The notes under the pieces: model-generated
What the model saw: the letters and a program-made list of their open reading frames with translations, nothing else
What the model was told of the DNA's origin: nothing
Databases searched by the model: none
Shown here: positions 288 to 10,720 of the stretch, one piece after another
How the letters are laid out: each line of letters opens with the position of its first letter
Position numbering within the stretch: position 1 is the first letter of the stretch
NCBI GenBank assembly: GCA_002069965.1
Contig: MWCI01000004.1
Location: 1 to 64,000, forward strand
Reading direction: 5' to 3'
Source: Spirochaetes bacterium ADurb.Bin218
GTDB lineage: Bacteria; Spirochaetota; UBA4802; UBA5550
Length of the DNA: 64,000 nt
Program-made: the position numbers and the translations under genes

Positions 288-3200
288 ATGCTTGAGTTAT
301 CAGAGACAGAGGTCTATATATTTGAGCCCGGTAGCTATAAAATAAGATGGGTAAATCACTTTGCAAAGAAAAATACAGGCTACAGCAGATTAAAATTATT
401 ATCCTCCACTGTTATGATTTTAAATCCAAGTTTTAGCTTAGAACGCCTTGATGCTGCTTTAAGCTCACTTGTAAAGGGGGAGGAAAACTTTAAGCTTTTT
501 ACCACAACTTTTGTTCGCAGCAATGGAAGCAAATATCCTGTTGAGGTCAACATATTTTTTGATAAATCAATGAATATCTTTGTTGCAACAGCTCATGACA
601 TAACTGCAAAAAAAGAGATGTTTAAGGCCTTTGAAGAAAACGTTGCAGTCCTTTCTACAATGCTCCAGCATATGCCAGATTTAATCTGGCGTCAGGATGA
701 AAATGGTTCCATCATTTTTTGCAATAGCTCCATGGAAAAATTTTTAGCCAAAAAAAACAAAGAGATTGTGAGTAAAAAAATTTCCGAGATATTTGACAGC
801 GACAGTGCATCAAAAATTGACACTGTTACATCACAGGCATGGAGCAGTGGGGCAATTGCAATTGATACAATAGATATAAATTTTAATAATTCAGGGAAGA
901 TATTTTTTGAAATAACTGCAGTGCCAATAAAAGATAGAAAATCTAATGTAGAGTCAATTCTTGTAATTGCCCATAATATAACAGAAAAAATAATGGCCCA
1001 TGAGGCCTTAAGAGATAGCGAGGATCTTTATAGAAAGTTCATTGATGCATCAGATGATCTGATTTTTTTGAAAGATCAAAATTTGAACTATGTTATTGTA
1101 AATTTAGCCAATGCTCGATTCTTTGATAAGAAGATTAGTGATATTATAGGCAAGAGCGATTTTGATCTAATGGATTATAATCTTGCATTGCAATGTCGCG
1201 ATAGCGACATAAAAGCTATGGAAAGTGGCGCTCTTATTATATCCGATGAGGAGCATCATGGCAAGGTTTATGAATCAAGGAAATTCCCTGTATATACACG
1301 CAATGGTAAAAAGTTTATTGGAGGATATATACGGGATATTACAGAAAGTGTAAACCTTGCCAGGAATCTGGAAATATCAGCCAATCAATGGCGCCAGACC
1401 TTTGATTCCATAGATGATATGATATGGCTACTTGACAGGGATTTTACAATAGTTAGAGCAAATAAATCATCGGAAAAATTTTTAAACCTCAAACCTCAGA
1501 AACTTATTGGGAAAAAATGTTGGGAGGTTATTCATAACAGTTATATGCCTCCAGAAACTTGCCCCTATAATTCCATAAAGAATAATAAGAGCTTTGAAAA
1601 TTGCTTTATAGAGATGAATGATAAATTCTTTTCTGTTTCACTATTTCCTGTTGTTGATAATTCAGGATCTATAGACTCAATTGTTCATATTGTAAGAGAT
1701 ATAACCAAAGAAAAACAAGCAGAGAAACAATTGCTTGAAAGTGAGGAATTGTTTAGATCGCTTTTTGAAAATCACTCTGCAATTAAATTAATTTTAGATC
1801 CCGATGGAGGTAAGATTATAGAGGCAAATGAGGCTGCAGTTGACTTTTATGGTTGGAGTAAAGAAGAGCTTAAATCTATGTCTATAATGCAGATAAATAC
1901 TCTAACACCTGAAGAGATACAGGCGGAAATCAATAAGGTCAAAGAAAGGAAAAAGGTACATTTTAACTTCAGACATAGAAGAGCTGATGGCTCAATACGT
2001 GATGTTGAGGTATACAGCAGTGCAATAAACATAAGAGGAAAGGTATATCTCCATTCAATTGTTCATGATGTAACTGATAAAAAACAGGCAGAAAAGGATC
2101 TTTTGATATTGGTTGAGGCTACAAGGCAAGCTGCAAGTGGAATAGTTATAACAGATATAAATGGAAATATTGTTTATGCTAACCCTGCATTTTTAAATAT
2201 GACCATGTATGAATTTGGTGAAGTAATAGGTAAAAATCCGAGGGATATTTTAAAATCAGGCCTTCATGGCAAGGACTTTTATCAATCCCTATGGGATACA
2301 ATTCTTTCTGGAAAAGTATGGCATGGAGACATCATAAATAGGCGTAAAGATGGAACACTCTATACAGAAGAAATGACTGTTAGCTCTGTGAGAGATGAAA
2401 GTGGCAAAATTATTAACTTTATTGCAGTTAAGCAGGATGTAAGCCGAAGAAGAGAAATTGAGCAGCAGTTGCGCAATAGTGAAAAACGTTTTAAGGCAAT
2501 AGTGGACACTCAGCCAGTAGCAGTGTGCAGGTGGGACAAAAATTTTAAAATCACATACGCCAATGAATATTACAGAGTTTTATTTCATCCATCAGGTGAT
2601 ATTATAGGAATCTGTTGGCTTGATTTTATCCCGGAAGATAGTAGAGAAGCTGTAAGGAATTTTTATTATACTGCCATAGAGAAACCTCATCAACTTAACT
2701 ATGAGCATGATGTTAAGCTTGCTGATGGGACAACAAGGCATCTTTTTTGGTCTGATATACCTATTTATGATGACCATGGGAATTTATTGGAATTTCAATC
2801 AGTTGGCACAGATATAACAGATAGAAAAAAGGCCGAAATTGAATTAAGGAAAAATTACAATTACACAAGGATTATTCAGGATATACTTAAAAATTCCATG
2901 GCCAAAATATCCCTTGAGGAATTTCTGGAGAATGCACTTTTTGCTATTTTTACAATTAAGCCTCTGTGTTATAATCCGGAGGCTATTGTATTTCTCTCTG
3001 ATTTGGAAAAGCAAAGTCTTAATGTGGTTGCATCTATTGGTTTTCAAGATGATAAAACAAAGTGCCTTGAAAGAGGATTTGCCACTGTTGAGGATTGTCT
3101 ATGCAAACAGGTTTTTGAACATCGAAAGTCAATTTGTTTTATAAGTGATGCTGCCTTTGCTGAATGCAGGGATAATGTATCAACGCATATATGCTCTATT

Positions 3201-4088
3201 CCCTTGAAATATAAAAGCGATATTCTTGGAATAATAAATATTGCAGTGGATAGAGAATATTCCCTTGAAGAAGATGATTTGCAGTTTATGGAAAACGTTG
3301 CTGCAATATTGGCAGGAGTAATTTTGCTAAAAAGAGCCGAAGACTTAGCAGCAAAAACACTGGAAGAGCTGGAATTTATAATTGATGAAAGAACCTCTGA
3401 ACTTAAAAAGGCAAATAAGGAACTGGAGGCTTTCACCTACAGCGTTTCTCATGACCTGAGAGCTCCTCTGCGCCATATATCTGGTTTTCTTGAGATGTTT
3501 AAAAATGAAGTAGGTGATTTACCTTCGCCTCGTGCAAATCACTATTTAAGTGTCATATCTGATTCTGTAAAGAAAATGACTCAACTAATTGATGATCTGC
3601 TTAAATTTTCTCGCCTTGGAAGAGCATCTATTGAGTGCCAGAATGTTTCTCTTGAAAAGATTATGAATGAAATTATAAATGATTTTTCTATGGAAATAGA
3701 AAAATCTAATTGCAGGGTAATATCAGACAATATTTTACCAGATGTAAAGGGAGATCCTTCCATGCTACGAGTTGTGCTTATAAATCTCATTTCAAATGCA
3801 ATAAAGTTTTCTTCAAAGGTTGCAGAGCCAGAAATTCATCTCGGTTCCATGGAGCAAAATGAAGAGATTATTTTTTATGTCAGGGATAATGGTGTTGGTT
3901 TTGATATGCGCTATGCAGATAAGCTTTTCAATGTTTTCCAGAGACTTCATAGCGATAGAGAATTTGAAGGAACAGGAATTGGCCTTGCAATGGTTCGAAA
4001 TATCATTGAAAAGCACAATGGCAGAGTATGGGCAGAGGCAAAACCTGGAGAGGGAGCAATATTTTATTTTACTCTTGCAAAACCTTAA
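288..4088 (+). CDS. Multi-PAS/GAF sensor histidine kinase (7 PAS)
   Basis: Soluble sensor kinase of 1266 residues with no membrane segment. PAS domains lie at about 1-108, 120-235, 245-355, 365-475, 485-598, 605-722 and 730-845, most closing with a DIT/DVT motif. A GAF domain follows at about 870-1012, then a coiled coil, a HisKA domain with H1055 in YSVSHDLRAPLR, and an HATPase with NLISNAIKFS, DNGVGFD and GTGIGLAMV. The SVSHDLRAPLR type of H-box is typical of phytochrome-like kinases that pair with Rcp1-type receivers, and such a receiver is the next gene. The fourth PAS carries the common CWEVIH....CP pattern. No Shine-Dalgarno sequence precedes 288. The frame is open back to 252 and runs into the presumed transposon end, so the native N-terminus may be lost. 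Confidence 0.9.
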   Translation: MLELSETEVYIFEPGSYKIRWVNHFAKKNTGYSRLKLLSSTVMILNPSFSLERLDAALSSLVKGEENFKLFTTTFVRSNGSKYPVEVNIFFDKSMNIFVATAHDITAKKEMFKAFEENVAVLSTMLQHMPDLIWRQDENGSIIFCNSSMEKFLAKKNKEIVSKKISEIFDSDSASKIDTVTSQAWSSGAIAIDTIDINFNNSGKIFFEITAVPIKDRKSNVESILVIAHNITEKIMAHEALRDSEDLYRKFIDASDDLIFLKDQNLNYVIVNLANARFFDKKISDIIGKSDFDLMDYNLALQCRDSDIKAMESGALIISDEEHHGKVYESRKFPVYTRNGKKFIGGYIRDITESVNLARNLEISANQWRQTFDSIDDMIWLLDRDFTIVRANKSSEKFLNLKPQKLIGKKCWEVIHNSYMPPETCPYNSIKNNKSFENCFIEMNDKFFSVSLFPVVDNSGSIDSIVHIVRDITKEKQAEKQLLESEELFRSLFENHSAIKLILDPDGGKIIEANEAAVDFYGWSKEELKSMSIMQINTLTPEEIQAEINKVKERKKVHFNFRHRRADGSIRDVEVYSSAINIRGKVYLHSIVHDVTDKKQAEKDLLILVEATRQAASGIVITDINGNIVYANPAFLNMTMYEFGEVIGKNPRDILKSGLHGKDFYQSLWDTILSGKVWHGDIINRRKDGTLYTEEMTVSSVRDESGKIINFIAVKQDVSRRREIEQQLRNSEKRFKAIVDTQPVAVCRWDKNFKITYANEYYRVLFHPSGDIIGICWLDFIPEDSREAVRNFYYTAIEKPHQLNYEHDVKLADGTTRHLFWSDIPIYDDHGNLLEFQSVGTDITDRKKAEIELRKNYNYTRIIQDILKNSMAKISLEEFLENALFAIFTIKPLCYNPEAIVFLSDLEKQSLNVVASIGFQDDKTKCLERGFATVEDCLCKQVFEHRKSICFISDAAFAECRDNVSTHICSIPLKYKSDILGIINIAVDREYSLEEDDLQFMENVAAILAGVILLKRAEDLAAKTLEELEFIIDERTSELKKANKELEAFTYSVSHDLRAPLRHISGFLEMFKNEVGDLPSPRANHYLSVISDSVKKMTQLIDDLLKFSRLGRASIECQNVSLEKIMNEIINDFSMEIEKSNCRVISDNILPDVKGDPSMLRVVLINLISNAIKFSSKVAEPEIHLGSMEQNEEIIFYVRDNGVGFDMRYADKLFNVFQRLHSDREFEGTGIGLAMVRNIIEKHNGRVWAEAKPGEGAIFYFTLAKP

Positions 4089-4125
4089 GGTGGGCGCTCT
4101 ATTAATTTGAATTAAGGAGTATTCT

Positions 4126-4548
4126 ATGGAATCTAAAGTCAGAAGAGTTCTTCTTGTGGAAGATAATGATGCTGATGCTGAGCTTGTTATTTCTGTAATG
4201 ACAGATGAAAATTTACCGGTAAATATAGACAGAGCTGATGATGGTGAGAAGGCTCTGGATATACTTTTCAATTGCTATCAAAGTAGGGATCTCTCATGTA
4301 TTATACTTGATATAAAGCTTCCAAAGATAGATGGGCTTGAGGTTCTTAAAATTATCAAGAACAATGAAATATATAAAAATACACCTGTTGTAGTTTTTAC
4401 TTCTTCTGCAGAGGAAAGGGATATTGAAAGGGGTTATATGCATGGAGCAAATGCCTATGTGGTTAAGCCTCTTGATTTTGTTCAATATAGGGAAGCTGTT
4501 TTATCCATTGGAAATTTTTGGTGTAAATACAACGAAATGCCAATCTAA
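4126..4548 (+). CDS. Single-domain response regulator, Rcp1-like
   Basis: A 140-residue CheY-fold receiver with no output domain. Acidic pocket residues E12/D13, phospho-acceptor D62 in IILDIKLPKIDG, a conserved Thr/Ser in VVVFTSS and Lys in YVVKPLD are all visible. The long beta4-alpha4 region and the LLVEDNDADAEL start match receivers that partner phytochrome-type kinases (Rcp1 family). An AAGGAG Shine-Dalgarno sequence lies 7 bases before the ATG. The gene follows the large PAS kinase by 37 bases, so it is probably that kinase's phosphate acceptor. Confidence 0.9.
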   Translation: MESKVRRVLLVEDNDADAELVISVMTDENLPVNIDRADDGEKALDILFNCYQSRDLSCIILDIKLPKIDGLEVLKIIKNNEIYKNTPVVVFTSSAEERDIERGYMHGANAYVVKPLDFVQYREAVLSIGNFWCKYNEMPI

Positions 4549-4559
4549 AAGGAGGAGCT

Positions 4560-5627
4560 ATGTTTGTCATTTCAAGAAATGTTGCCCAGGAGTATCAAAA
4601 AAATAGAACTAAGCTCATAGAATATGTCGATGACTTTATGCTAAATCATCCAGATATAGATAAACTGGTTGGTGCAAAGGGCATTGATATGATGAAGATT
4701 AATCATCAAAACCATGCAGCCTTTATATCTATGATTCTTTTGCTCAATAGATTTGACTCACTTGCGCAAAGCCTTCCATGGGTTTATAGGGCATATCACA
4801 ATCATGGCTTTTCTTATGACTATTTTCTTGTGGCCCTTAATGCCTGGATTGAGGCAATTTCTAAATATCTTGAAAAAGATTATGCTGATGAGATTATTCC
4901 TGTTTATAAATGGATAATTGAAAAACATGATGAAACTATCCTTAAATCTCAGGAAGAAAAAAATACAATATACCTTGTAGATAATAAGTGGATAGATGTC
5001 TTTGAGAAATTCTTCGATTCATTGATGAAAGGCGATAGCTTTCGTTGTGTTGACATAGCAGTGAAAGCCTGTTTTGAAGAAAAGGATGTTGTGGAATTCT
5101 ATGTCAATGTTGCTCAGCCATCACTTTACAAAATAGGAGAGCTATGGGAAAACGGCAAAATTACAGTGGCATGGGAGCATCTTGCAACTGCAATTGTCTC
5201 AAAGGTCATTTCCCATCTTTCTGCACTATTTCGCAGGCCCTTTAATGAAGAGAGACGTGCTCTGGTGCTTTGCATCACAGGGGAATACCATCAAATTGGT
5301 GCGTGGATGGTTGCAAACTGCCTTGAGTTTAATGGATGGACAACAAATTTTTTAGCAGATAGTCTCCCCTTTATGGATGCAATGGAACATATAGCATCTT
5401 TTAGACCTGATATTGTTGCAATCTCTGTTACAATGCAGTATAATATTACTCCAATGATTGATTTTATAAAAAAAATAAAAGATGATAAACCAGATATCAA
5501 GATTATTGCAGGGGGACAGGCTTTTAGACCATTTCCAGATCTGCCACAAATTCTTGGAGCTGATGGTTATTCAGATAGTTGCACATCAGCCGCTCTTCTT
5601 GCTGATAAATTGATCTCCTATTCTTAA
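4560..5627 (+). CDS. Cobalamin-binding sensor protein with CarH-like motifs
   Basis: 355 residues in three parts. Residues 1-150 are an all-helical N-terminus that I do not recognise. Residues 150-230 form a B12-binding four-helix cap and 230-355 a Rossmann-type B12-binding domain. The cap carries W196-x9-E206-H207, the motif that marks adenosylcobalamin photoreceptors of the CarH/LitR type. The Rossmann domain carries E242-x-H244-x-x-G247, the lower-axial-histidine motif. There is no MerR-type DNA-binding domain and no enzyme domain, so it probably passes a light or B12 signal to the neighbouring kinases or receivers by protein contact. A GGAGG Shine-Dalgarno sequence precedes the ATG, and the gene begins 11 bases after the upstream receiver. 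Confidence 0.85.
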   Translation: MFVISRNVAQEYQKNRTKLIEYVDDFMLNHPDIDKLVGAKGIDMMKINHQNHAAFISMILLLNRFDSLAQSLPWVYRAYHNHGFSYDYFLVALNAWIEAISKYLEKDYADEIIPVYKWIIEKHDETILKSQEEKNTIYLVDNKWIDVFEKFFDSLMKGDSFRCVDIAVKACFEEKDVVEFYVNVAQPSLYKIGELWENGKITVAWEHLATAIVSKVISHLSALFRRPFNEERRALVLCITGEYHQIGAWMVANCLEFNGWTTNFLADSLPFMDAMEHIASFRPDIVAISVTMQYNITPMIDFIKKIKDDKPDIKIIAGGQAFRPFPDLPQILGADGYSDSCTSAALLADKLISYS

Positions 5628-5648
5628 AATCTAAAATAGGGTCAGGGT

Positions 5649-7070
5649 ATGGAAAACAAGCTGAAGTTGCTTTTTGTAGAAGATATGGTTGAATCCTTTG
5701 AGATGGCAGAGTATGAACTAAGAAAATCTGGCCTTGATTTTATTGCAGAAAGGGTTGAAAACAGCAATGACTTTGAGAGCTTATTAAAAACAATGAATCC
5801 CGATGTAGTTATATCTGATTATTATCTCCCACAATTTAATGGCATGATTGCCCTTAAAATTGCTAAAAGCTTTGATGAGTCCATGCCCTTCATAATATTA
5901 ACAGGTAACCTTAATGAAGAGATTGCAGTTGAGTGTATGAAATCTGGGGCAAATGATTATGTTCTCAAGGAGCATTTGAGCAAACTTCCTTTTTCAATCC
6001 GTGAGGTAATAAAGCAGAGAGATGCTTTACGAGATAAAAAGAAAGCAGAAGTGGCACTCATGGAGAGTGAAAGGCGTTACCGTAGCATTTTTGAAAGGAA
6101 TTTTGCCGCAATGATGATTGTAAATCCTGAAAATGGTTCTATCATTGATGCAAATAACGCTGCTGGTGATTTCTATGGCTATTCTCTAAAGGATTTACTT
6201 TCAAAAAGATTACAGGATATTACAGATGAGGCTATACCTTTGCCTGTCGAGATATTAAATCTGGCAGCATCTGGTGGCAAAAAGCATTTTTATTCCAAAC
6301 ATATCACTAAAAGTGGACTTATTAAGGATGTAGAGATTTTTTGTAGCCCTGTAACTTTTTGGGGTAAAACCTATATTCACATGATTGTCCACGATATAAC
6401 TCAGCGTAATAGAGCTATAGCAGCACTGCGCAATTCTTTGAAGGCCAACAGAGAGCTTGTAAGGGAAATATTTCACAGGACAAAAAATAATCTCCAGGTA
6501 ATAATATCAATATTTGGCCTGCAGGCTATGTATTTTGAGGATGAGCGCCTTTTAACTGTTTTTAAAGAAATGGAAGATAGAATTAAAGCCATGTCCCTGG
6601 TGCATGAAATGCTCTATAAATCTCAGAGCCTCTCAAAGTTACCACTGGATGAATACATAACAGATTTAATTTTCAATATAAAATCTGGATATGGTGTAGG
6701 TGATGAAAAACTTTCAGTTATTTTTGATATGGAAAGGGTAGAGGTTTTAATTGATATAGCTCTCCCCTGTGGCCTTGTTATAAATGAGCTTGTTGTTAAT
6801 GTTATAAAGCATGGATACAGCTCAAAGGCTGAGGGTATTTTGTGGGTTACTCTTAAAAAAGATAAAGATTCAGAGATAAAAATTACCGTTGAGGATAATG
6901 GTGCAGGCAAGGGAATGATTATTGATCTTAATTCTGTGGAAACCTTAGGTTTGAGCATTGTCAAAAATATTGTTGAATATCAGTTAAAAGGGACTATATC
7001 CCTTGATACAGCTAATGGATTTAAATGGGTAATTACCTTTCCTGATAATTTATACGAAGAGCGAGTTTAG
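5649..7070 (+). CDS. Receiver-PAS-histidine kinase (HisKA_2 type)
   Basis: 473 residues with the receiver at the N-terminus: REC about 5-122 (acceptor D57 in VVISDYYLPQFNG), PAS about 140-253, HisKA_2 with H276 in VREIFHRTKNNLQVI, and HATPase with CGLVINELVVNVIKH and DNGAGKG. The HisKA_2 H-box (H-R-x-K-N-N) belongs to the light- and stress-sensing HWE/HisKA_2 group. A receiver in front of the transmitter suggests that phosphorylation by another kinase of the cluster tunes this one. It lies 21 bases after the B12 gene and is apparently co-transcribed with it. Confidence 0.9.
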   Translation: MENKLKLLFVEDMVESFEMAEYELRKSGLDFIAERVENSNDFESLLKTMNPDVVISDYYLPQFNGMIALKIAKSFDESMPFIILTGNLNEEIAVECMKSGANDYVLKEHLSKLPFSIREVIKQRDALRDKKKAEVALMESERRYRSIFERNFAAMMIVNPENGSIIDANNAAGDFYGYSLKDLLSKRLQDITDEAIPLPVEILNLAASGGKKHFYSKHITKSGLIKDVEIFCSPVTFWGKTYIHMIVHDITQRNRAIAALRNSLKANRELVREIFHRTKNNLQVIISIFGLQAMYFEDERLLTVFKEMEDRIKAMSLVHEMLYKSQSLSKLPLDEYITDLIFNIKSGYGVGDEKLSVIFDMERVEVLIDIALPCGLVINELVVNVIKHGYSSKAEGILWVTLKKDKDSEIKITVEDNGAGKGMIIDLNSVETLGLSIVKNIVEYQLKGTISLDTANGFKWVITFPDNLYEERV

Positions 7071-7073
7071 TGA

Positions 7074-7445
7074 ATGAAAGATATTTCTGTGTTCATAGTT
7101 GAAGATGAAGCAATGACAGCTCTATTTATGGAGAGCATGTTAAAAAAGAAAGGACTGAAAGTTGTAGGGAAAGTTAACTCTGGGGAAGAAGCTTTGACTT
7201 TTGTAAAAAATCTTAAACCAGATGTGGTTATACTGGATATTCGTTTATCTGGTGATATGACAGGAATCGACACTGCAAAAAAGATAAGGGAAGAGGTGGA
7301 CTATCCAGTGCAGTTAATATTTACAACAGGATATGGAGACTCTGAGTATAGGTCTATGGCGGAGCAGTTACAACCTTTGGCATTTCTGGAAAAACCAGTA
7401 AATATTAACGATATATTTAATTTAATAACTAATTGTACTTCATAA
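7074..7445 (+). CDS. Single-domain response regulator
   Basis: A 123-residue receiver with acidic residues E10/D11/E12, phospho-acceptor D55 in VVILDIRLSGDMTG, Thr in IFTTGYGD and Lys in AFLEKPVN. The pattern with an LSGDMTGI loop is common in receivers fused or adjacent to HisKA_2 kinases. Only 3 bases separate it from the preceding kinase stop, so it is almost certainly translationally coupled and a natural phosphate acceptor for that kinase. There is no output domain, so its effect must come from a protein partner. Confidence 0.88.
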   Translation: MKDISVFIVEDEAMTALFMESMLKKKGLKVVGKVNSGEEALTFVKNLKPDVVILDIRLSGDMTGIDTAKKIREEVDYPVQLIFTTGYGDSEYRSMAEQLQPLAFLEKPVNINDIFNLITNCTS

Positions 7446-7467
7446 AATTATAAGTAGGTGTTTTGTT

Positions 7468-9897
7468 ATGGAAGAGATAGGTGATAGGAGAAAAATTATT
7501 TTACACCTGGAGGACTCAAAGGAAGATGCAGAAATTTTAGTGGATAAGATTCGCAGGTCTGGGTTCAAAATAGAATATCACCTTGTTTCTGTAAAGGATA
7601 AATATATAGATATTTTGGATAAATTTTTACCTGATGTAATTATCATAGATTTAAAGGTCCCTGGATTTGAAGGAGTTGAACCTATATTGATTGCACGGCA
7701 GTATCACAAAAGTGTTCCTATAATTGTGCTCACTGGTGCAGTTGGAGAAGAAATGGCTGTTAATGCTCTCAAGGCTGGTGCAGCAGATTTTATTTTAAAA
7801 GACAACATTGAGCGCATTATTCCTGTGCTTGAGAGAGCTTTTTATGAACGTAAAATTATCCTTGAAAAGGATATACTCAATAGCGAACTAAAAGAATTTG
7901 AAGAAAAATATAAAAATTTGCTCGAAAATCTTCCAGTGGGAATTTTTAGAACAACAACTGAAAGCCCGGGAAAATTCCTTAATGCCAATATTGAAACTGC
8001 AAGGATGTATGGATTATCTTCAGTTGAGCAATTGCTTCAGATATACGTAGAGGATATTTATCAAAATCCAGAAGAAAGAAAATTATTACAGGAAGAAATA
8101 AAATCAAAGAAGAAAGTAAAGAATATTCTTGTCAACTTAAAGAGAATTGATGGCACTCCATTTTTGGGATCAATTTCTGCTTCATGCCATTTTAACAATA
8201 AAGGAGAAGTGGACTGGATCGATGGAGTTATAGAGGATGTAACAGAAAAAGCCCAGTTACAGGAAAAATTGAAATCCTACAGTAATTTTTTTGAGACTCT
8301 TCTTGATACCATAAATAGCCCGGTTTTTTACAAAGATATATATGGAAGGTATATCGGATGCAATAAGTATTTTTCAGAACTGATTATTGGCGCTCCTAAG
8401 GAAGAGATTCTCAATAAGACTTTATTTGAGTTAAAGGATTATATACCCTATGAGCTTGCACTTAAGTATGAAGAGATGGATAAAAAACTCCTGGAAAATC
8501 CTGGCATCCAGGAATATGATTACTTTGTTAGATGTTCAGATGGCAAGCTGAGGTATTTTCATTTTAACATGAGTGTTTATAGAGATAGCAAAGGAAATGT
8601 TGCAGGCATTGTTGGTATCATGATTGATATCACAGAGTCAGTTGAAAATCAACAAAAGCTCATTCAAAGCAATGAGGAGTTGTCTTTGCTTATAAATTCT
8701 CTGCCAAGCATAATAATAGGGGTCTCTGTTAAAGATATTGTAACACAGTGGAATCCCTTTGCAGAAAAGATTCTTGGATTAAAGGCAGAGGATGTAATAG
8801 GAAAACGATTTTATGAAACAAGGATAAAATGGAACTGGGAAAAGATCTATGAGGCAATAGGTCAGTGTATAGTAAATAGAAAAGGCATAAGGCTTGATGA
8901 CCTCAAATTTGAAACAGAAGATGGGAAAACTGGAATTCTTGGTTTAAGTGTTAATCCTCTTATAAGGGGTGGAGATTCCCTTGAAGGATTTATGATTCTT
9001 GGAAGAGATGTAACAGAGCAGAGAATTCTTGAAAGCCAGGTTTTCCAATCCAATAAGCTTGAGGCCATAGGACAGCTTGCCGCTGGCATTGCCCATGAGA
9101 TAAATACGCCACTACAGTATGTTGGTGATAATCTTAAATTTATTACAAAGTCTTTTGAAGGTATTTTAAAGCTCATAGAAAAATATAGAGAGGTATATAG
9201 CAAGTGGCAAAACAACGAGACTCCAGATTTCAAGTCTTTTTTTGAGGAAATTGTTCATATTGCCAGAGAAATAAAACTCGATTTTATTGCAGAGCAGATT
9301 CCTCCTGCCCTAAGTGAGGCCTATGATGGATTACAGAGAGTGTCAAAGATTGTTCAATCAATAAAGGCCTTTTCTCATCCTGGAACAGGAGAAAAGACTT
9401 CTGTGGATATAAATAAGGCCATAGAAAATACAATTACAGTTTCCAGAAATCAATGGAAGTATGACTCAGAGGTTATTATGGATTTTGATCCAGATTTACC
9501 ACTTGTGCCATGTTTTGAATCAGAATTTAATCAGGTGGTCCTTAACCTTATAATCAATGCCTCTGATGCAATACATGAGGCAAAGGAAAAGGGAATTATT
9601 GAACATGGAATTATAAAAATAACAACCTCTGTGGAAGAAGGATATGCAGTTGTAAAGGTTTCTGATAATGGCACAGGAATACCAGAGAAGATACGCAATA
9701 GAATATTTGATCCTTTTTTTACCACAAAAGAACCGGGGAAGGGGACTGGCCAGGGATTGCCAATTTCTCACTCAATAATAGTTGAAAAACATCAGGGAAT
9801 GCTGTATTTTGAAAGTGAAATTGGTAAGGGGACAACTTTTATTATAAAGCTTCCTCAAATGTCTTTCTATCTGTTACAGGGGATATCCCGCCTTTGA
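7468..9897 (+). CDS. Receiver-PAS-histidine kinase (HisKA type)
   Basis: 809 residues: REC about 8-125 (acceptor D61 in [13 protein letters not shown]), PAS domains about 145-265, 270-390 and 395-520, then HisKA with H543 in [16 protein letters not shown] and HATPase with [17 protein letters not shown] and a [10 protein letters not shown]2 box. The long insert after the H-box and the GTGQGL box are typical of kinases in receiver-PAS-kinase chains. It is the last gene of the signalling operon. Its final codons overlap the convergent unknown gene by 56 bases. The last 11 residues, beyond the normal HATPase end, are probably just read-through to the next stop. Confidence 0.9.
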
Positions 9898-10720
9898 AAA
9901 CAATTTCAAGGGAAATATTTTGTGAGCTGTTAAAAAGTCTGTCATAATAAGGTAAGAATTTTTCTTTAAACCTGCTTCTCAGCCTCTTCACCTCATTGGA
10001 GTGAGTTACAAAGTAAGAATTATAGTAAAAGAAAAATGCAATAAATCTTATAAGCATTCTGTTCATGTGATTGAGAGTTGTGGAGCCAGTCTGGACAAAA
10101 TCAAGGCGAGCCAGGTCAGAGTAAGTTGATTTGCCATTAGAAAGAAGTGTAATGAGATTATCCACTACGTTTTCTGTTTCCGCAATAAGTCTACCTAAGT
10201 GTTCCCCTCCAACTGGTTGATTGATATTTTCTTCAAGGGTGACCTTATTTATGCAGAGTGTTTTGGAAAAGATTGAGCTTAAATGTCCAGCAACCTCTCT
10301 GTCAAAGCTGCTGTTTTGTGCAATGAGATTCTTGATTTTATAGTTATTGTTTATAACGCTTTGGAGCCTCTCAAGCATTGACATCTCTGAGGCGGTTTTT
10401 ATTTCTGATTTAAATATACTGTCAAAGTCAAAATTCTGGCTATGAGGTTGGTTTGTTGAGTTTGAAGAGCTTCTTAATTCTGTGCTTATGTCTCTTTCAT
10501 TTGAAGGAGATTTTTTTGACATGGTAATTTTTTTGATAAGATTTGTATATTCATCTCTATATATGTAAAGTTCAAGGTCTTGCTCTTTTAAGTACTGATC
10601 AAATTCAGCAGGAGGAATAAAGGCAAAGGTGCCATCTCTTTTTTTCCTCATAATTGGCACGCTATTTTCCATTATAAGAGGCAAGAGCTCCCTTACTTCA
10701 TCGTTATTTAGAGCCACCAA
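9842..10720 (-). CDS. Unknown protein with a start near an A9 tract
   Basis: The reading frame encodes 292 residues from a TTG at 10720 (a GTG lies at 10717), and neither start has a convincing Shine-Dalgarno sequence. I do not recognise a family. Residues 1-60 look like a compact domain containing RKKRDGTFAFIPPAEF, residues 75-105 are a Ser/Asn-rich linker, and residues 110-290 are mostly helical. There is no signal peptide and no membrane segment. Upstream, in another frame, GAGGT followed by ATG at 10752-10750 makes a far better start. It would join this frame if the A9 tract at 10741-10733 were one base longer. The 3' end overlaps the convergent kinase gene by 56 bases. Confidence 0.7.
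   Translation of the reverse strand: MVALNNDEVRELLPLIMENSVPIMRKKRDGTFAFIPPAEFDQYLKEQDLELYIYRDEYTNLIKKITMSKKSPSNERDISTELRSSSNSTNQPHSQNFDFDSIFKSEIKTASEMSMLERLQSVINNNYKIKNLIAQNSSFDREVAGHLSSIFSKTLCINKVTLEENINQPVGGEHLGRLIAETENVVDNLITLLSNGKSTYSDLARLDFVQTGSTTLNHMNRMLIRFIAFFFYYNSYFVTHSNEVKRLRSRFKEKFLPYYDRLFNSSQNISLEIVFKGGISPVTDRKTFEEAL

Follow-up and report, generated by a model that had tools for sequence, protein, structure and literature searches.

What does a vitamin B12-binding protein do within a run of histidine kinase and receiver genes, and on what does it act? The question is raised by a 355-residue protein encoded in the window, the 64,000-nucleotide stretch of DNA analysed here. A sequence-only reading had described, at 4560-9897, a CarH-type photoreceptor module embedded in a kinase/receiver operon, its B12 protein (4560-5627) lying between an Rcp1-like receiver paired with a phytochrome-style kinase and a HisKA_2 kinase. 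That span belongs to a single run and leaves out its two upstream genes (kinase 288-4088 and receiver 4126-4548). Six same-strand genes extend over 288-9897 (+), with 3 to 37 bases separating neighbours; the gaps at the upstream end are 37 bases (kinase to receiver) and 11 bases (receiver to sensor). The features of the run are:

288..4088 (+), multi-PAS, GAF and HisKA/HATPase_c histidine kinase (Pfam), first gene of the run, with the H-box SVSHDL at residue 1052 by sequence
4126..4548 (+), stand-alone receiver (Pfam PF00072), Rcp1-like, phosphoacceptor D and K present
4550..4555 (+), ribosome-binding site AGGAGG of the sensor gene, by sequence
4560..5627 (+), globin-first B12 sensor, 355 aa, ORF open
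4560..4979 (+), N-terminal globin-like domain, residues 1-140, without a Pfam family; modelled fold phycobiliprotein/photoglobin-like
4701..4781 (+), N48-x25-W74, putative equivalents of SasPcob D270/W296, and the NHxNH motif
4980..5624 (+), cobalamin-binding domain (CBD), residues 141-355, photoreceptor type
5136..5180 (+), G193-x2-W196-x9-E206-H207, adenosyl-capping motif, with Glu (E197) after the Trp
5283..5516 (+), ExHx2Gx41SxTx(22-27)GG B12-binding motif, residues 242-319, with H244 the predicted lower axial ligand
5649..7070 (+), receiver-PAS-HisKA_2-HATPase hybrid kinase (Pfam), homologue in the L036 cluster
7074..7445 (+), second stand-alone receiver (Pfam), homologue in L036
7468..9897 (+), receiver-PAS(3)-histidine kinase (Pfam), homologues in L035 and L036

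All three kinases keep the phosphoacceptor His. The first has a HisKA/HATPase core and no PHY match in Pfam, and the phytochrome-style label fits its catalytic core at most. Scans found terminators (7, against 6.7 in shuffles) and promoters (within 2 sd) at shuffle level, so the limits of the operon are only putative. Neither the gene list nor Pfam includes a methyltransferase in the run, and comparisons with phage records and PHROGs gave no match. Past the end of the run, a 292-aa ORF without a Pfam match is encoded on the other strand (9842-10720, -); about 56 bases at its 3' end are shared with the last kinase gene.

The C-terminal part of the sensor carries B12-binding_2 (residues 148-220) and B12-binding (233-339), both above curated Pfam cut-offs. 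CarH homologues have been defined by the motif ExHx2Gx41SxV/Tx22-27GG together with Wx9EH (PMC8156234), and the sensor satisfies both. W196-x9-E206-H207 and E242-x-H244-x2-G247 occur at the residues originally claimed, the second extending to the full motif over 242-319. Taken alone, Wx9EH is weak evidence; it arises by chance in 236 of 20,000 shuffles of the sensor protein (1.2%). Every CBD of the listed photoreceptor-type set has it, however, the MetH/corrinoid-type CBDs from the same searches all lack it, and the homologues in the same context, which the sequence-only reading expected to keep it, all carry it. The light-response elements of SignatureFinder are GxxW, EH, GxxH and GxxxP (PMC11796333); the first three are exact in the sensor and the fourth reads A266-x3-P270, its Gly replaced.

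A full-length model (pLDDT 94.4) agrees with this placement. The top match of the modelled CBD is photocobilin 8j2w (Z 28.8, rmsd 1.5 Å, 208 residues aligned), with CtMerR 8jbs at Z 22.9 and CarH at about 21.5 (21-22); photocobilin and CarH are also among the top Foldseek rows for the sensor model. The monomethylamine corrinoid protein 3ezx reaches Z 23.8, so the fold by itself does not discriminate, whereas the motifs do. A tree, with long branches, splits photoreceptor-type from MetH/corrinoid CBDs with support of 100/99. Motifs and modelled fold together confirm the cobalamin domain as photoreceptor (CarH) type, and the sensor can be predicted with good confidence to bind adenosylcobalamin (AdoCbl).

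The resemblance to CarH ends with this domain. Pfam finds no DNA-binding domain in the sensor, MerR-type included, which bears out the reported loss of the one used by CarH, and the N-terminus folds as a globin in the model. A globin-first N-terminus indicates a photocobilin-like sensor, not a CarH without its DNA-binding domain; the CarH-type designation holds for motifs and fold of the CBD, but the closest characterised relative is a photocobilin.

The N-terminus had been described as helical and unfamiliar. Modelled alone (pLDDT 93.5) it is indeed all-helical, but it is identifiable by its modelled fold as a phycobiliprotein/photoglobin-like globin. The best match is the biliverdin-binding smURFP (Z 15.0, 126 of 145 residues), followed by phycobiliproteins (Z 13-14) and the globins of photocobilin 8j2x (12.8), DosC (12.5) and a stressosome protein (12.3); chance can give Z 13 for helical folds, yet nearly all rows listed belong to the globin superfamily. 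On these models a globin fold is highly probable. Sequence comparison is far less telling. The N-terminus matches no family in Pfam or NCBIfam, a PDB sequence profile search with its alignment reached only E 0.23, to a globin, and its profile gave no significant match to allophycocyanin alpha (1all). Alignment of the globin subfamily with photoglobins by hhalign is gapless and in register over 103 columns, and its score is not above shuffles (20.4 against a shuffle maximum of 22.6), so it is the fold, together with the N/D-x25-W register common to both groups, that supports the globin call. The modelled structure makes homology to photoglobins likely, though the sequence similarity is not significant. 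The globin represents a previously unrecognised subfamily that sequence profiles do not detect.

Two residues are of note in SasPcob (PMC10979010): D270 meets the pyrroles of biliverdin, and W296 is in contact with biliverdin as well as corrin. Alignment of model residues 5-130 with 8j2x chain residues 227-346 pairs N48 with D270 and W74 with W296, provided that no gap precedes residue 74; the gapless profile alignment has the same register. The Asp-to-Trp step in Streptomyces photocobilins is also 26 residues. The Asp column is invariant in 13/13 photoglobins, and the 12 members of the present subfamily all have N-x25-W; the corrin-contacting Trp is retained (W74) while the bilin-anchoring Asp is replaced by Asn48. 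A heme-binding globin was considered and is unlikely, the F-helix stretch having no invariant histidine (position 82 is His, Asn or Arg).

The sensor thus stands nearest to the photocobilins (SasPcob 8j2w/8j2x, AbDPcob 8j2y; PMC10979010) and photoglobin-B12 proteins, which likewise combine a photoreceptor-type CBD with a phycobiliprotein-like globin and in which the W296-equivalent Trp is kept. Members of this group bear the AdoCbl domain at either terminus and act on enzymes by fusion or in trans. The sensor differs in its globin subfamily, with the Asp270 to Asn replacement and its invisibility to sequence profiles, and in that most of its relatives encode globin and CBD separately, in an operon that also holds a histidine kinase gene. 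With CarH/LitR it shares both B12 motifs and the CBD fold, but it has neither the MerR DNA-binding domain nor the His after the Trp, and its context is kinases, not DNA. CtMerR shares the CBD fold, the light signature and the lack of that His, but has a DNA-binding domain and no globin. In the BBAG-2 three-gene clusters a globin gene also adjoins a B12-binding protein gene; these clusters hold a bilin reductase (pre-PcyA) and are tied to heme oxygenase (PMC10151467), whereas the CBD/globin operons have a histidine kinase as their third gene, and searches for heme oxygenase found none. Full-text literature searches returned no description of a CBD/globin/kinase operon.

Several photocobilin-like genes elsewhere have other neighbours. 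In Streptomyces, one (L066:3022-4101) is plasmid-borne just upstream of gas vesicle genes, and three (L067, L069, L072) adjoin a PP2C/SpoIIE-type phosphatase, with STAS genes also in L067 and L069, a neighbourhood that matches the one reported for SasPcob. At L085, a locus of the window's phylum, a photoglobin-CBD lies beside GGDEF.

The kinase and receiver setting noted for the window is borne out by its recurrence in relatives. The fused globin-CBD gene is found in four genomes, the window's included (G000, G002, G007, G031), always in receiver/kinase clusters; the other three belong to the window's order. A HisKA kinase core related to that of 288-4088 adjoins the fused gene in L035 and L036 and lies one receiver away in L037. 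At ten further loci the CBD (about 215 aa) and the globin (about 153 aa) are separate genes of three-gene operons with a histidine kinase, ordered CBD-globin-kinase (L008, L010, L012, L014, L058, L059, L060, L038) or CBD-kinase-globin (L009, L061). These operons occur in Bacteroidota-type genomes and in G020 (L038) of the window's order. In Ilyobacter polytropus a globin-CBD fusion overlaps a GGDEF gene. In the window's phylum the globin profile matches 6 of 393 genomes, and in that of Lutibacter 5 of 395; a stand-alone globin of the subfamily at L051:6052-6522, the only one without a neighbouring CBD, adjoins receiver and kinase-like genes. In a survey of the window's phylum, a histidine kinase lies within about 1.5 kb of 12/28 photoreceptor-type and 0/17 enzyme-type CBD loci (Fisher p 0.001, indicative only, as the loci are related and were chosen by score). 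The linkage to HisKA_2 kinases in particular is not specific: one partner is of this type, but most are HisKA kinases, and GGDEF proteins occur also. Elsewhere in the survey, the protein encoded at L094:1495-2460 combines an HTH_3 (XRE-type) domain with a photoreceptor-type CBD in one chain, a CarH-like regulator that has no MerR domain; the L095-L099 genes are similar in size, Pfam having been run on L094.

How the sensor might reach a kinase is suggested by the split operons. Pfam finds no sensor domain in the first ~140 residues of the partner kinases, and a conserved N-terminal domain of ~150 aa is common to those of the G020/L038 and Bacteroidota operons. A profile of the Bacteroidota kinase N-termini matches the L038 HisKA_2 kinase at 114 bits and the Ilyobacter GGDEF protein weakly (14 bits, partly coiled-coil bias), with E-values computed on a tiny target set. 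That one input domain is joined to catalytic domains of different kinds suggests that the CBD/globin may dock there. It is also found beside CBDs with no globin detected nearby (L079, L080, L081, L084). At L080 and L084 the CBD adjoins a histidine kinase with this domain and a receiver gene; the L080 receiver carries an HD domain (HD_5) in the same protein, which suggests a c-di-GMP output. Profile searches find the shared domain neither in the window's kinases nor in the window's genome, so in the fused lineage the sensor seems to be coupled to different kinases, the most likely partner being the upstream HisKA kinase at 288-4088.

The explanation that best accounts for the whole, to which we give a probability of about 0.52, is a photocobilin-like B12 switch of reversed domain order that acts on an operon kinase. 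A phycobiliprotein/photoglobin-type globin would come first and a CarH-type AdoCbl domain second. In the dark, H244 would ligate cobalt from below and W196, E206 and H207 would cap the adenosyl group. The cap would be lost, and the E206/H207 helix shifted, on green light or whenever the adenosyl group departs for another reason; this could alter the oligomeric state or the globin-CBD interface, where W74 may pack against the corrin. By analogy with photocobilins, the AdoCbl-bound sensor in the dark and the sensor after exposure to light are expected to have different oligomeric states or globin-CBD packing, and kinase binding or release would follow from that difference. Through such protein-protein contact, autophosphorylation of a same-operon kinase, most likely the upstream HisKA kinase, would go up or down, and the phosphate of that kinase would pass to the stand-alone receivers. 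Of the parts, a kinase output is quite probable and light as the signal is somewhat less so, though still favoured. Regulation in trans has a precedent, as photocobilins control a diguanylate cyclase both by fusion and in trans (PMC10979010). The light state would differ from that of TtCarH; with E197 after W196 the bis-His form cannot arise. In TtCarH the H132A variant largely loses light-driven tetramer disassembly (PMC10442372), but photocobilins and CtMerR function without a His after the Trp, which the sensor likewise lacks.

The same capped dark state could instead report AdoCbl supply or cobalt redox to the same kinases, a reading we regard as about half as probable. The window's genome encodes a BtuR/CobA-type adenosyltransferase, so cobalamin can be turned into AdoCbl; no PduO-type enzyme was found in it. 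Neither a class-I photolyase nor a PF01126 heme oxygenase was found in this genome (96.6% complete), which leaves a light-exposed life without independent support, and cobalt redox steps govern the CarH response in vitro (PMC10442372). Heme oxygenase is also missing from 15 of 17 other genomes searched in the phylum, nearly all with photoreceptor-type CBDs, so its lack is not special to the present globin subfamily. Against a purely metabolic signal, the adenosyl-capping Wx9EH is a feature tied to photoreceptors, and SignatureFinder-positive proteins put to the test responded to green light (PMC11796333).

A second chromophore is improbable: the globin would bind biliverdin or another bilin and extend sensitivity to red, as in a dual-chromophore photocobilin. 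Its best fold match, smURFP, binds biliverdin, W74 aligns with SasPcob W296, and the window's phylum has heme oxygenase-photoglobin-like fusions beside a CBD. The pyrrole-contacting Asp, however, is Asn in 12/12 subfamily members, and no searched genome with this subfamily has a PF01126 heme oxygenase; bilin binding of any kind by the globin is judged unlikely. The fusions themselves (L082:140-1450 and L089:148-1431) combine PF01126 with a photoglobin-like domain, and the gene immediately downstream encodes a Wx9EH cobalamin domain on its own; a fusion of this kind could both make and hold its own bilin beside a B12 photoreceptor.

An ordinary corrinoid shuttle or metabolic B12 protein, near kinases by chance, shares the superfamily fold of MetH/corrinoid proteins such as 3ezx but is very improbable, given that those proteins lack Wx9EH and are set apart in the tree, that the run has no methyltransferase and that the kinase neighbourhood recurs across phyla.

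Beyond the window, the reversed-order B12 switch acting on a kinase leads to a tentative proposal, at somewhat below even odds, of a B12-gated two-component family in which a phycobiliprotein-like globin without bilin would relay the loss of adenosyl from a CarH-type domain to a histidine kinase acting in trans. It would take two forms: three-gene operons in which the kinase has a dedicated input domain, and a fused sensor in a multi-kinase phosphorelay, as here. The broad idea is an older one: the 2022 photoglobin paper of Schneider et al. reportedly predicts that photoglobin-B12 proteins feed into signalling systems generally. What is added here to the photoglobin-B12 (photocobilin) group is a globin subfamily not recognised before and a kinase operon that recurs. 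B12 photoreceptors characterised so far are transcription factors or, in photocobilins, control a diguanylate cyclase. If histidine kinases are indeed a conserved partner, B12 photobiology would reach into two-component signalling, and small split-gene sensors for green-light kinase control would become available. There is also the question of why the globin retains its corrin-contacting Trp once the bilin anchor is lost.
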